Below are positions 19,000 to 27,977 of a DNA stretch of 38,356 nt, piece after piece. Each line of letters opens with the position of its first letter. Position 1 is the first letter of the stretch. Below the pieces are notes generated by a model, which ran no database searches, was not told the origin of the DNA, and worked only from the letters and a program-made list of their open reading frames with translations. Where the stretch lies: positions 1 through 38,356 of the forward strand of contig CAIQUX010000027.1 in assembly GCA_903875055.1 (NCBI GenBank), read 5' to 3'. The position numbers and the translations under genes were made by a program. Source of the stretch: an uncultured Bacteroidota bacterium (lineage in GTDB: Bacteria; Bacteroidota; Bacteroidia; Chitinophagales; Chitinophagaceae).

Positions 19000-19374
19000 C
19001 TATTCATCTTTGATATCGTCTTTGATAAGTTCGATACTCACTTTGCAAACACCTTGCTTATAAAAACCCAGTATTTTTGCTGCTGAGGAAGAAACATCAA
19101 TAAGGCGTTTATTTCGACCGTGCATATGGTCGTTGATGGTGACAATGACAGAGTTGTTGTTTTTTAGATTTGTCACCCTAACCTTAGTCCCACATTTTAA
19201 TCTGTTACTCGCAGCAGTTAATTTTTCATTGTTGAAAACTTGCCCACTAGATGTTTTTCTGCCATTGAACCTTGGATGATAATAACTGGCAGTACCAGTC
19301 CATTGTGTCCGCTCTGTCTGTGCTTCGCTTGATAAATGCAGACAAAGCAATACTATCAGAATCAGTTTATGCAT
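19000..19374 (-). CDS. Septal ring lytic transglycosylase RlpA family protein
   Basis: GTASYYHPRFNGRKTSSGQVFNNEKLTAASNRLKCGTKVRVTNLKNNNSVIVTINDHMHGRNKRLIDVS; signal peptide. Confidence 0.9.
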   Translation of the reverse strand: MHKLILIVLLCLHLSSEAQTERTQWTGTASYYHPRFNGRKTSSGQVFNNEKLTAASNRLKCGTKVRVTNLKNNNSVIVTINDHMHGRNKRLIDVSSSAAKILGFYKQGVCKVSIELIKDDIKDE

Positions 19375-19539: not shown

Positions 19540-19953
19540 TTAATTGAAGGCAATATTGCCTTCTTCATCTGTCAGGACCTGTATCCGAACTTCGCCCAAA
19601 CCCTGATTCAGGAAACCTAATTTGTTTGCAGCAGCCTGAGAAAGATCAATCAGTCGTTTATTGCCCGGATGCATCCGGTCGTTTACTTTGACAATCACGC
19701 TTACTCCGTTTTTTAGATTGGATACAAGTATATAAGTTCCAAGTCGAAGAAAATTATTGGCGCATGTCAGTTTCCTATTGCTGAAAATTTCTCCATTGGT
19801 TGTTTTGCGGCCATTAAACTTAGGGTGATAATAACTTGCCATCCCTTTCCAGACATTCACGTTGATCTTATTAAATTGCGAAAAGGAGTTTTCATTAACA
19901 AACAACAGACAGGTGATAATGACTAAAACAGATACGTATTTAATTGCTTTCAT
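19540..19953 (-). CDS. Septal ring lytic transglycosylase RlpA family protein (paralog)
   Basis: GMASYYHPKFNGRKTTNGEIFSNRKLTCANNFLRLGTYILVSNLKNGVSVIVKVNDRMHPGNKRLIDLS; signal peptide. Confidence 0.9.
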   Translation of the reverse strand: MKAIKYVSVLVIITCLLFVNENSFSQFNKINVNVWKGMASYYHPKFNGRKTTNGEIFSNRKLTCANNFLRLGTYILVSNLKNGVSVIVKVNDRMHPGNKRLIDLSQAAANKLGFLNQGLGEVRIQVLTDEEGNIAFN

Positions 19954-20053: not shown

Positions 20054-21085
20054 TTACCAAATGTTAACCTCTCGTTCTAACGTGATGTTAAACGCTTGTT
20101 GCACGGATGTTATAATTCGTTCAGAAAGTCCTAAGATGTCGCGTCCATTAGCATCTGAATAATTGACCAGACACAGGGCTTGTTTAATATGAACACCAAA
20201 ATTTAGCTCACGATATCCTTTCCAACTTAGCGCATTATCAGGATGACAATGCTCAATTAACCAGGCTGCTGGAATTTTTACTGCCTCGTTATTTTTGAAA
20301 AAGGGCATGTCATTGTATTTCTTATGAAGAATTTCAAATTCAGATTCGCTAACGCTTGGATTCTTAAAAAAACTACCGGCATTACCTATCATTGCCGGGT
20401 CTGGTAATTTGCTTTGACGAATACGGATGATTGCATCAGAAACTGCTTTTAAATTTAATTCAGTTACCCCCATTGAGTTCAGTTCATCCTGAATATGACC
20501 ATAGCTGGTATTGAATTGAGGTTTTTTAGAAAGTTGAAGCGTGACTGAAAGGATGATGTACTTTCCCTTTGCTTCAGTCTTAAAAATGCTGTTGCGATAA
20601 CCAAAATTACATTCATTTTTCATGAAAACTTTTCGCTGTTTCAAACAGATATGCATCGCTTCTAATTCAACAAAGACATCTTTTAATTCTGCTCCATAAG
20701 CACCTATATTTTGAATCGGTGCGGCGCCAATGGTCCCTGGAATGAATGAAAGATTCTCAATTCCTCCCAGGTTTTGCTCCACACACCAAAGAACACAATG
20801 ATGCCAGCTTTCACCGGCTTGGAATTTTACTTTTGCAATCGAATCATCTTCGTAAATAATTTCAATGCCTTTCATTTGATTGCGAATCACCAATCCGTTT
20901 ACTTCATGCGTCAGTAATACATTACTGCCTCCGCCAAGAATAAAAAGTTCCTGCTCTTTGGCTATTTCACTTTCCAGGACTAGTTGTAATTCTTTCTCAT
21001 TTTGAACTGTTGTAAAATAGCGGGCATATTCATCGATATGAAACGTGTTATAGTCCAGCAATGATTTTTGTTGTTCAATCAGCAT
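20054..21085 (-). CDS. murB: UDP-N-acetylmuramate dehydrogenase
   Basis: LFILGGGSNVLLTHEVNGLVIRN, LSFIPGTIGAAPIQNIGAYGAE, MIGNAGSFFKNP, AAWLIEHC. Confidence 0.97.
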   Translation of the reverse strand: MLIEQQKSLLDYNTFHIDEYARYFTTVQNEKELQLVLESEIAKEQELFILGGGSNVLLTHEVNGLVIRNQMKGIEIIYEDDSIAKVKFQAGESWHHCVLWCVEQNLGGIENLSFIPGTIGAAPIQNIGAYGAELKDVFVELEAMHICLKQRKVFMKNECNFGYRNSIFKTEAKGKYIILSVTLQLSKKPQFNTSYGHIQDELNSMGVTELNLKAVSDAIIRIRQSKLPDPAMIGNAGSFFKNPSVSESEFEILHKKYNDMPFFKNNEAVKIPAAWLIEHCHPDNALSWKGYRELNFGVHIKQALCLVNYSDANGRDILGLSERIITSVQQAFNITLEREVNIW

Positions 21086-22607: not shown

Positions 22608-24026
22608 ATGCAACAATATCTAGAGCAATATTTCGGTAAGGAAAATATTCTGTCAGTCGAACCTCTGGCACAAGCCGGATCTAACCGAAAATATTACCGT
22701 GTATTCTCCGGCGATAAAACGTTCATTGCCTGCGAAAGTTCTAATACGGAAGAGAATGAATCGTTCTTTTATTTCACCGAGTTTTTTAAGCAAAACGGAT
22801 CGCCTGTCCCTCAACTTCTGCAGATCAGTAAGGACCGAAAAAAATATATTCAGGAAGATGTTGGTGACGAATCTCTATTGGATGTCGTATTGAGAGAAGG
22901 GTATACAGAAGCAGTTAAAGAACTATACAAAAAATCGCTCTCCGCACTCGTCAACATGCAATTGACAGGTGGATTGGAACTTGATTTTACAAAATGTTAT
23001 TCATCGTCTTCATTCGACAAGAATGCTGTCTTGGCTGATTTAAATTACTTCAAATACTTTTTTCTTGATCTGCATAAGATCGATTATAATAAAGCCAAAT
23101 TGATGGCCGACTTTGAAAAATTATCAAAAAGCATTGGACAAATTGGCCCTCTCTATTTCATGTATCGCGATTTTCAGGGAAGGAATATCATCATAAAAGA
23201 ACAAGAGCCACACTTCATAGATTATCAGGGTGGCATGAAAGGTCCTTTGCAATATGATGTGGCCTCACTTTTGTGGCAGGCCAAAGCCCAATTGCCGTTT
23301 GATTGGAAAACCGAATTGTATGCGCATTACAAACATGAACTGAGAAGTAAGATCCAGGTCGAAGAAAAAATGTTTGATGACGGTTATTCATCCATCGTAT
23401 TGGTTCGTTTACTGCAGGTGTTAGGTTCATACGGGTTAAGGGGCATCATCGAACGACGCGCCCATTTCCTGAGTAGTATCCCCTTGGGACTGGCCAATGT
23501 CAATGAATGGCGTTCACGATTTTCATTGGAAGGTTATGATGAATTGAATCATGTTCTCGTAGCGATGGAGGAACAGATCACTGAACATCAGATCGGTGTG
23601 GTGAAAAAATATGCAGAGAATAAACTCAGTATCCTGGTTCAAAGCTTTTCTTACAAGCAAGGGATTCCTGTGGATGAAAGCGGAAATGGTGGCGGCTTTG
23701 TTTTTGATTGTCGCGGCATCCTGAATCCCGGGCGGTTTGAGGAGTATAAGAAAAGTACGGGCAGAGACCGGTCCGTTATTCAATTTTTAGAATCAAAAAC
23801 CAAGGTTCATGAGTTTCTTCAACATGTGAAAGGCATCATTGATATTTCTGTTGACGATTATCTGAATCGCGGATTTGAAAACCTGATGATCAGTTTCGGT
23901 TGTACAGGCGGTCAGCACCGATCGGTTTATTGTACCGATGCGATAGCCAAACATCTGAAAGAAAAATATGGTATTGATGCTACAGTCAGGCATATCGTGC
24001 AGGATGCCAAAGACTGGGTCAACTAA
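22608..24026 (+). CDS. AmgK/APH-like sugar phosphotransferase fused to RapZ C-terminal domain
   Basis: N-half: QAGSNRKYYRV, YRDFQGRNIII, FIDYQGGMKGPLQYDVASLLWQAKAQLP (APH/AmgK type). C-half: VFDCRGILNPGR...SFGCTGGQHRSVYCTDAIAKHL (RapZ C-terminal domain signature). Confidence 0.88.
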   Translation: MQQYLEQYFGKENILSVEPLAQAGSNRKYYRVFSGDKTFIACESSNTEENESFFYFTEFFKQNGSPVPQLLQISKDRKKYIQEDVGDESLLDVVLREGYTEAVKELYKKSLSALVNMQLTGGLELDFTKCYSSSSFDKNAVLADLNYFKYFFLDLHKIDYNKAKLMADFEKLSKSIGQIGPLYFMYRDFQGRNIIIKEQEPHFIDYQGGMKGPLQYDVASLLWQAKAQLPFDWKTELYAHYKHELRSKIQVEEKMFDDGYSSIVLVRLLQVLGSYGLRGIIERRAHFLSSIPLGLANVNEWRSRFSLEGYDELNHVLVAMEEQITEHQIGVVKKYAENKLSILVQSFSYKQGIPVDESGNGGGFVFDCRGILNPGRFEEYKKSTGRDRSVIQFLESKTKVHEFLQHVKGIIDISVDDYLNRGFENLMISFGCTGGQHRSVYCTDAIAKHLKEKYGIDATVRHIVQDAKDWVN

Positions 24027-24926: not shown

Positions 24927-27900
24927 TTATTTCCTGTATCGGGAAGCCACACCTAATGCATTATAGATATACTCCTGTGCATGTTCACGCACATTCAGCT
25001 TGTTGATCATCTTGTTTTCAGCAGTCGGGTACGTGCGGTTCGATAAGAAAATGAATAACAATTCATGTTGTGGATCGGCCCATACGCTGGTGCCGGTAAA
25101 TCCCTGATGGCCGAATGTTGACAAGGATGCATTATCAGGACAAGGGCTTGATTTGCCAGGTGTGGGTTCTGGTTTGTCGAATCCTAATCCGCGTCGGCTG
25201 ATACCCGAGTTTCTTGCAGTGAACAGATCGACTGTAGCTTTTTGAAAATAGCGTTTCCCACTATACACACCACCGTTCATCAACATTTGAAAGATGACAC
25301 CCAAATCATTGGCTGAAGTGAAAAGGCCAGCATGACCAGAGACACCACCAAACATGGCCGCCGCCATATCATGTACATTTCCTTGTAGAGTCTGATATCT
25401 GAAATATTGATCGATTTCCGACGGCGCAATATCTTTTCCTGCCAAATTACGTCTCGGTAAATAGGCTGTGTTGGTAAGCCCTAAGGGATTATAAAATTCA
25501 TCATTCACATACACACTCAGCGATTTATCCGTTAATCGTTCCACCACTTTCTGAAGTAAAATAAAATCCAGATCACTATACACATATTTGCCTTCGTTCT
25601 CAAGTGGTGACGTGAGAATGCGGTTCCACATCGTATCGATCCAATCGCTTCGCATGAATAAATCGGGTGCAACGATCACGTTGAATTTTCCTGAAGGGGT
25701 CTTGCTATAGATATCGGCTTTAGGATGACCTGTACTATCGAGCGTCTCTTTATAAAAAGGAATCCATGCTTTTAATCCGGCCTGATGAGTCAGGATATCT
25801 TTAATCTTAAGATGTTCCTTATCGGTACCTTTTGTTATTGGTAAAAAAGTTCCTAATGATTCATTGAGATCGATCTTGCCTTGTTCATACAATTTCATCA
25901 TGGCAAGTGTCGTGGCAGCCACTTTGGTTACCGAAGCAATATCATAAATGGTATTGATGTCGACCGGCGTCTTTTTTGTTTCATCTGTAAAGCCAAAAGG
26001 TTTATCATAAAAAACTTTCCCTTCTTTCGCCACTAAAATGCGACATCCCGGAAACGCTCCCGACTTGATAGCTGACTCGATGAATTCATCCAGTTTATCA
26101 AGTTCCTTGTTGTTTACACCCAATGCATTCGGACTCACACAACATTGTAATGGATAATCGTGTGCGAATTTCACCGGAACTATTTTTTCGACAGTGACAT
26201 CCTTATTTTGCTTTGAAAATAAAGTGCTGTCGGCCACTTCACCAAGATTGGTAGTGATCGAACGGATACCATCACCCGCTTTATAATTGGCGCAGACGGT
26301 CACCGGCAATCTTCCCTTCGCTTTCAGTTGACCGGTAAGGATTTTCGCTGCGGCAATTTGTGTTTCTTCAGATTCGTCGTAGGTGACCATCATCCCTTCA
26401 TTCTCACAGAAATTCTTCATGGCATATGGATTACCGAATAAGACCATGATGCTCTTTTTAGTCTTGGTGAGTTCGGTAATCATATCAAGTTCATTTTGCG
26501 TTATACCGAAATTTTTCCCTGGATAACCGGTCAGGTTATGTATGCCGATAATTAGTATGTCGGCCGCTTTGATTTTCTTATAAAACGACTTTGTATGTTT
26601 TTCTTCGGCAGTAGGAGCAAAAAGTATCTGCTTCACACCGGCATCGGTCAGGGCTCTGGTGAAAGCGCTTTCAGAGGTGGTACCGATTCCTACATACGCA
26701 ATATCTGCTCCGGCATTTCGTTTGATCTTATCAATCATCTGGTTGGGATCATTGAGTAAGGTGATGGCGGCTTCAGCCATCTGTTGACGTAAAGTACTCA
26801 CATAACGGTTCAGGTCTTCATTCAGATTGGAAGTACTGATGGTATCATGTTTGTATAGCCCTGCATTATATTTTGCCTCCAAAATCTTTTTCACACTTTC
26901 TTCTAATCTTGCCTCCGGAACTTGACCATCCGCAATCGCTTGTCGTATCTTTTCGACACCGGTCGGTACATCCTGTGAAAAGAGAAGGACATCGTTGCCG
27001 GCGGCAAAAGCCTTCAGGTCGATTTCGCCGGGTGAATAGTATTTGGCAATGCCATCCATGTTCAAGGCATCGGTAAAGATCAGACCTTTGAATCCCATTT
27101 TTTGTTTCAATAATTGTGTTACCGCTTTATCGGAGAGGGTCGTAGGCGTATGCTCTCTATCGTCGATAGCTGGTATCTGCAAATGGGCTACCATGACAGA
27201 TTGCAGTCCGTTTACAATCAATTTGTTGAAAGGATAAAATTCAAGCGCTTCGAGTTCAGGAATGGTTTTTTTTATTTCGGGAAGATCTTTATGTGAGTCT
27301 ACGTCTGTGTCGCCATGACCGGGAAAATGTTTGGCACAGGCCATCACGCCATTATCCTGCAAACCACGCATATATTGCAAACCATAATTGGCCACCTTAT
27401 TCTTATTCTCTCCGAATGACCGGAAATTGATAACCGGGTTATTGGGATTATTATTGATATCGATGACCGGTGCGAAATCGACATGTACACCCATCCGTAC
27501 ACATTGGTTTGCAATGGCACTTCCCATCTTGTAGACCAGGGTACTGTCGGTCATGGCTCCCATCATCAGCTGTCGGGGAAAATCGCGAACACCTGTCAAC
27601 CGCATACCCAATCCCCATTCGGCATCCATCCCGATCATGAGGGGCACCTTACTCATCCTTTGATAGTGATTACATTGTTCGGCTTGTACCAGCGGTGTAC
27701 CTTGCATGAAAATCAATCCGCCGATACCGTTTTCGTTGATCAGTTTTTCCATCAGAGGCTGATTATATTTCTCACCACCTGAATAGGCCGCAATCATAAA
27801 CAATTGTCCGATCTTTTGAGTTAGCGACATTGAATTATATACACTATCGACCCAGACACGTTTGGCAGAAGCCATAGCAGGAAGTGGAACTGAATTGTTA

Positions 27901-27977
27901 GCTGGTTGCGCCATGACTTGATGCATTAGACAAAGCAGAACGAGTAATGACAGCAGAAACTTTTGCGGCATGAGCAA
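24927..27977 (-). CDS. Glycoside hydrolase family 3 (NagZ-like) fused to class C beta-lactamase-like serine hydrolase
   Basis: 1016 aa; KHFPGHGDTDVDSHKDLP and FTDALNMDGIAKYY (GH3/NagZ); C-terminal YDIASVTKVAATT (SxxK), YSDLDF and HQGFTGTSVWADP (serine hydrolase). Confidence 0.93.
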   Translation of the reverse strand: MLMPQKFLLSLLVLLCLMHQVMAQPANNSVPLPAMASAKRVWVDSVYNSMSLTQKIGQLFMIAAYSGGEKYNQPLMEKLINENGIGGLIFMQGTPLVQAEQCNHYQRMSKVPLMIGMDAEWGLGMRLTGVRDFPRQLMMGAMTDSTLVYKMGSAIANQCVRMGVHVDFAPVIDINNNPNNPVINFRSFGENKNKVANYGLQYMRGLQDNGVMACAKHFPGHGDTDVDSHKDLPEIKKTIPELEALEFYPFNKLIVNGLQSVMVAHLQIPAIDDREHTPTTLSDKAVTQLLKQKMGFKGLIFTDALNMDGIAKYYSPGEIDLKAFAAGNDVLLFSQDVPTGVEKIRQAIADGQVPEARLEESVKKILEAKYNAGLYKHDTISTSNLNEDLNRYVSTLRQQMAEAAITLLNDPNQMIDKIKRNAGADIAYVGIGTTSESAFTRALTDAGVKQILFAPTAEEKHTKSFYKKIKAADILIIGIHNLTGYPGKNFGITQNELDMITELTKTKKSIMVLFGNPYAMKNFCENEGMMVTYDESEETQIAAAKILTGQLKAKGRLPVTVCANYKAGDGIRSITTNLGEVADSTLFSKQNKDVTVEKIVPVKFAHDYPLQCCVSPNALGVNNKELDKLDEFIESAIKSGAFPGCRILVAKEGKVFYDKPFGFTDETKKTPVDINTIYDIASVTKVAATTLAMMKLYEQGKIDLNESLGTFLPITKGTDKEHLKIKDILTHQAGLKAWIPFYKETLDSTGHPKADIYSKTPSGKFNVIVAPDLFMRSDWIDTMWNRILTSPLENEGKYVYSDLDFILLQKVVERLTDKSLSVYVNDEFYNPLGLTNTAYLPRRNLAGKDIAPSEIDQYFRYQTLQGNVHDMAAAMFGGVSGHAGLFTSANDLGVIFQMLMNGGVYSGKRYFQKATVDLFTARNSGISRRGLGFDKPEPTPGKSSPCPDNASLSTFGHQGFTGTSVWADPQHELLFIFLSNRTYPTAENKMINKLNVREHAQEYIYNALGVASRYRK

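Follow-up and report, generated by a model that had tools for sequence, protein, structure and literature searches.

A 38,356-nucleotide stretch of DNA from an uncultured Chitinophagaceae bacterium (contig CAIQUX010000027.1; hereafter the window) encodes a protein in which an APH/AmgK-type sugar kinase is followed by the C-terminal domain of RapZ (RapZ_C), which raises the question of which sugar such a kinase phosphorylates and what a RapZ domain does at its end. The ORF codes for 472 amino acids and is free of internal stops. Pfam assigns residues 17-241 to APH (E 7e-9) and residues 341-462 to RapZ_C (E 9e-33; 113 bits, the cut-off being 27), and the NCBIfam models of AmgK and RapZ match residues 2-265 (59 bits) and 331-461 (105 bits), respectively, both far under their equivalog cut-offs. 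AlphaFold2 modelled the whole fusion protein with a mean pLDDT of 93.2 and RapZ_C alone with 93.7. Foldseek searches matched the C-terminal half to the E. coli RapZ-CTD (E 1e-10, TM 0.83-0.93) and the full model to APH-like kinases, with 3CSV on top and N-acetylhexosamine 1-kinase among the matches; 3CSV was also found by the kinase profile (E 9e-26), and a PDB profile search with RapZ_C returned RapZ plus chance matches and nothing else. The first-pass annotation had described the ORF as such a fusion, with the P-loop half of RapZ replaced by a kinase. Pfam, NCBIfam, AlphaFold2 and Foldseek agree on the architecture, Pfam and NCBIfam place an APH kinase in the N-terminal position, and the structure prediction that the annotation had proposed as a check on each half gave matches to the RapZ-CTD and to APH-like kinases. 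An assembly chimera could be ruled out because more than 100 loci show the same domain order in fused form. The features discussed below are as follows.

22608-24026, plus strand: gene of the 472-residue kinase-RapZ_C fusion, conserved in more than 100 loci (Pfam, NCBIfam, AlphaFold2)
22656-23330, plus strand: APH/AmgK-type kinase domain, residues 17-241 (Pfam APH, NCBIfam AmgK, 3CSV by profile and fold)
23163-23186, plus strand: catalytic loop YRDFQGRN, residues 186-193 (no variation at Asp188 and Asn193; Tyr or Phe at position 186)
23214-23234, plus strand: metal-binding motif FIDYQGG, residues 203-209 (Asp205 invariant)
23538-23618, plus strand: predicted helix, residues 311-337, with a lower-confidence interdomain linker (AlphaFold2 model)
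23628-23993, plus strand: RapZ C-terminal domain, residues 341-462 (Pfam, PDB profile search, AlphaFold2, Foldseek)
23679-23696, plus strand: Gly-rich insertion SGNGGG, residues 358-363, before VFDCR (alignment to 5o5s, conservation)
23724-23732, plus strand: NPG, residues 373-375, with Gly375 where E. coli RapZ has His190 (all 106 fusions have Gly)
23901-23924, plus strand: CTGGQHRS, residues 432-439, a CX5R motif equivalent to the RapZ Cys247-Ser254 anion pocket (conservation in 106 fusions)

The hallmarks of AmgK-type enzymes, namely the catalytic Asp and Asn and the metal-binding Asp on an APH fold, are all present in the fusion. It shares its fold and the RDF...RN and ID(F/Y)Q motifs with AmgK, the MurNAc/GlcNAc anomeric kinase of Pseudomonas and Caulobacter, and like AmgK it is paired with MurU and occurs where MurQ is absent. 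It differs from AmgK in having Tyr or Phe for the His before RD and a C-terminal RapZ domain, and the window protein misses the NCBIfam AmgK equivalog cut-offs widely (59 bits for a cut-off of 550, and 31 for one of 500). Since these scores lie so far below the cut-offs, the sugar specificity of the kinase is not fixed by homology. This, together with the N-acetylhexosamine 1-kinase among the fold matches, leaves room for a kinase acting on another sugar, which with a nucleotidyltransferase would yield a UDP-sugar for surface glycans instead of recycled MurNAc.

A comparison of 106 fusions revealed that Arg187, Asp188, Asn193 and Asp205 are invariant, and that position 186 is Tyr in 95 and Phe in 11; the equivalent residue is Ile in the split kinases of family f4 and His in those of family f17 (both discussed below). 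The first-pass annotation had correctly noted the Tyr in YRDFQGRN and the retained Asp and Asn, but had erred in regarding the His of the HxD motif as catalytic, as the catalytic base of the APH-type kinase fold is Asp, not His. YRD is also seen in active kinases, for example PKA. A pseudokinase reading based on the His-to-Tyr change was rejected given the invariant Asp and Asn and the prevalence of Tyr or Phe throughout the clade; the change is clade-wide and not a lesion.

The genomic context points to MurU. Among the 104 loci with room to see the downstream gene, 60 have a MurU-like nucleotidyltransferase in the same orientation no more than 0.85 kb downstream, and two further loci have one 5.7-7 kb downstream; the best NCBIfam match of this neighbour is MurU, below cut-off. 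No other gene clearly recurs beside the fusion across lineages. In two Bacteroidaceae MAGs the kinase, RapZ_C and MurU form a single polypeptide of 757-760 residues (L071:7971-10253 and L085:7983-10256). In the window genome the MurU homologue is unlinked to the fusion (G000:C47:31961-32671), which counts against a pathway reading. Thus, of the survey of spread and MurU linkage that the first-pass annotation had proposed, the fusion proved widespread and MurU adjacent in most relatives, with the window copy lacking the linkage.

A scan of species genomes retrieved 80 loci at 40-86% identity, mainly from Bacteroidota (Bacteroidales, Chitinophagales, Saprospiraceae, Ignavibacteria). A few of them carry the labels Neomarinimicrobiota, Delongbacteria or Chlorobiota. 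We also profiled 297 Bacteroidota genomes, a sample that is uneven and whose counts ignore relatedness except where stated. RapZ_C is present in 36 of these, fused to the kinase in 27 and as a stand-alone ORF of about 140 amino acids in nine, and a canonical P-loop RapZ was found in none of the 297; in the window genome the fusion is the sole RapZ_C. MurQ was scored as present at E <1e-40, a threshold that falls within a wide gap in the E values (3e-51 to 6e-12). An AmgK-like kinase (E <=6e-20) occurs in all 84 MurQ-less genomes as against 16 of the 213 with MurQ, and a MurU match at the cut-off used in all but one of the 84 (the exception being G024 of f17); 63 of the 84 belong to the single family f17, whose kinase is divergent and whose MurU scores less strongly (1e-34 to 1e-44). 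All 36 genomes with RapZ_C match both the kinase (E <1e-70) and MurU (E <1e-55) strongly. Mutual exclusion of AmgK-MurU and MurQ has been reported for Proteobacteria (PMC5371407), and AmgK and MurU have been assumed in Tannerella (PMC7670621).

The family f17 has neither AnmK, MurQ nor RapZ_C and resembles the fusion system in pairing a kinase with a nucleotidyltransferase in MurQ-less genomes, but its kinase has the canonical HRD. Its AmgK-like kinase, a MurU-like protein with a hexapeptide tail, and NamZ lie in an apparent operon (L134:2687-5837, L135:1752-4962, L139:3013-6139). NamZ is an exo-N-acetylmuramidase, and its place in this operon supports MurNAc as the substrate. AnmK alone, which occurs in 209 of the 297 genomes, is uninformative unless paired with MurQ status; the presence of NamZ, found in 39 of 41 selected genomes, is uninformative too. 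When AnmK is paired with MurQ status, all 13 genomes with AnmK and without MurQ, from six families, carry RapZ_C (family-level chance about 2e-6). The window genome, too, has AnmK and no MurQ. Thus, given the kinase in every MurQ-less genome, the linkage to MurU and the RapZ_C in every AnmK-positive, MurQ-negative genome, this enzyme very probably serves as MurNAc kinase in an anabolic AmgK-MurU wall-recycling route; the AmgK-like role put forward in the first-pass annotation finds backing in the MurU linkage and the complementarity with MurQ. The use of another sugar for surface glycans is improbable, as the neighbour's best family is MurU and both the MurQ complementarity and the f17 neighbourhood point to MurNAc.

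The role of RapZ_C is harder to assign. RapZ/YvcJ proteins (UPF0042) include the E. coli RNase adapter and GlcN6P receptor, whose C-terminal domain binds GlcN6P with a KD of 10 nM (PMC7073468) in a pocket formed by H190, T248, G249, H252 and R253, with C247 nearby (PMC5737377, PMC9841335). The fusion shares the fold of this domain and four of the five pocket residues, and the small-anion pocket is the best-conserved part of RapZ_C: Cys432 (the C247 equivalent), Thr433, Gly434, Gly435, His437, Arg438 and Ser439 are invariant in the 106 fusions. It differs in having the kinase for the P-loop domain, a Gly at the position of His190 in every fusion compared, and the SGNGGG insertion, which is absent from E. 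coli RapZ. His190 is essential in E. coli RapZ (PMC9841335), and with Gly in its place GlcN6P binding cannot be assumed for the fusion; the constant Gly and the Gly-rich insertion nearby suggest that the ligand may differ from GlcN6P.

At least three lineages encode RapZ_C as a gene of its own. In six f4 genomes three neighbouring genes encode the kinase, RapZ_C and MurU separately, and in G180 and G272 RapZ_C is located away from the kinase. Stand-alone genes for 133-136 residues unlinked to the kinase, one of them in G180, lie at L122:3935-4336 and L123:4083-4493, in genomes with AnmK and without MurQ. Such separation would be unexpected for a purely cis-acting domain and thus counts against RapZ_C as a regulator in cis; RapZ_C need not act only in cis.

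For the substrate, ligand and regulation of the fusion we infer the following scheme, which in its entirety we regard as about equally likely to be right or wrong. A cytoplasmic anomeric kinase would act on MurNAc, and perhaps also on GlcNAc, to form MurNAc-1-phosphate, which a MurU-like enzyme, encoded at another locus in the window genome, would convert to UDP-MurNAc, bypassing MurA/MurB. The conserved anion pocket of RapZ_C would take an amino-sugar 6-phosphate, either GlcN6P or a relative such as MurNAc-6P, and the ligand-bound domain would tune kinase activity to precursor supply. That RapZ_C regulates the kinase has perhaps slightly better than even chances, and the domain most likely senses GlcN6P or a different sugar-6-phosphate.

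RapZ_C could instead serve in assembly or in signalling in trans, through oligomerisation or the binding of a partner or RNA, and have no direct influence on the chemistry of the kinase. The E. coli RapZ-CTD dimerises and binds RNA, and RapZ stimulates a two-component system (PMC5737377, PMC7073468); the stand-alone RapZ_C genes would also fit such a role. However, the basic RNA-binding tail, restricted among RapZ proteins to Enterobacteriaceae (PMC7073468), is missing in the fusions, which have a mean net charge of about 0 beyond His462, and conservation peaks at the small-anion pocket, making this role a rather remote prospect.

In Pseudomonas the conversion of MurNAc-6P to MurNAc is carried out by MupP, an unrelated HAD enzyme. 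The fusion system is similar to the Pseudomonas anabolic route (MurU, MupP, AnmK) in having a linked or present MurU homologue and, in the window genome, AnmK; unlike that route, it has no MupP-like protein among the only two HAD_2 matches of the window genome, which resemble YjjG nucleotidase and glucose-1-phosphatase, and RapZ_C stands where MupP would be needed. The fusion matches a missing step of the Bacteroidota wall-recycling pathway. The Gph/MupP-like profile TIGR01449 gave no match above cut-off in 41 genomes and weaker matches everywhere, and so cannot name a MupP. RapZ_C might be a Cys-dependent sugar-6-phosphate phosphatase that takes MurNAc-6P, formed by AnmK, to MurNAc, so that the fusion would unite the functions of MupP and AmgK in one bifunctional protein. 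The invariant CX5R(S) motif is located on a strand-loop-helix element (CTGGQHRS, between strand and helix). The 13 AnmK-positive, MurQ-negative genomes, whose recycling pathway calls for a MurNAc-6P phosphatase, all have RapZ_C; several lineages retain the domain as an independent gene; and the two sampled kinase-MurU lineages that lack it lack AnmK too. In E. coli RapZ, the C247S variant is inactive and a catalytic thiol has been suggested by the authors, and GlcN6P soaked into a crystal of the CTD appears chemically transformed (PMC9841335).

Against a phosphatase, the fold resembles that of RapZ-CTD/PFK and the Foldseek matches listed include no PTP structure, the sequence does not match the PROSITE-type PTP pattern (of the HCxxGxxxR type), ten genomes with RapZ_C are without AnmK, the association with AnmK is not significant when f17 is left out (p 0.30), and most of these genomes encode other HAD phosphatases. 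We know of no RapZ with demonstrated phosphatase activity, and a search for weak Pfam homology of RapZ_C to phosphatases found none. On balance, a phosphatase function is unlikely, though it is the strongest of the rival readings, and the fuller proposal, in which RapZ_C would be the missing Cys-based MurNAc-6-phosphate phosphatase of Bacteroidota, joined to AmgK and, in certain species, to MurU as well, should likewise be considered doubtful. If true, the 760-residue form would take MurNAc-6P to UDP-MurNAc within one polypeptide, and the RapZ domain family, E. coli included, would have a hidden catalytic activity. The unexplained E. coli data on Cys247, which is essential, and on the altered GlcN6P in the crystal raise the question of whether the RapZ domain is catalytic.

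Our literature search, covering open-licence text, found no papers on the kinase-RapZ_C fusion, its spread or the MurQ complementarity. The parts are known and their combination is new and widespread: over much of Bacteroidota, gut-associated lineages included, it links a wall-recycling kinase directly to a known sensor domain for amino sugars. With MurNAc kinase activity and a sensory RapZ_C as the preferred reading, the fusion suggests how MurQ-less Bacteroidota recycle MurNAc. MurQ-independent MurNAc recycling has been linked to fosfomycin tolerance elsewhere.

In the kinase tree, in which deep forks are poorly resolved and G180 forms a long branch, the split forms are nested among the fused ones with about three changes of fused state, for which reason fission after fusion would be the simpler reading. 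The kinase of G180, with its unlinked stand-alone RapZ_C, is very divergent. We also observe a kinase-MurU pair of the fusion clade without RapZ_C (L136:3090-4801, genome G009), which has FRD for YRD; this genome has no match to RapZ_C, AnmK or NamZ and a weak match to MurQ.

Other wall genes near the fusion in the window encode MurB, two RlpA-like proteins, a GH3-beta-lactamase fusion and a glycosyltransferase, none of which was found as a conserved neighbour among related loci. The RlpA-like double-psi beta-barrel proteins are encoded in tandem (19000-19374 and 19540-19953, minus strand) beside MurB (20054-21085). The GH3 (NagZ-like) domain, joined to a beta-lactamase-fold serine hydrolase (24927-27977, minus strand), lies one gene off the fusion on the opposite strand.
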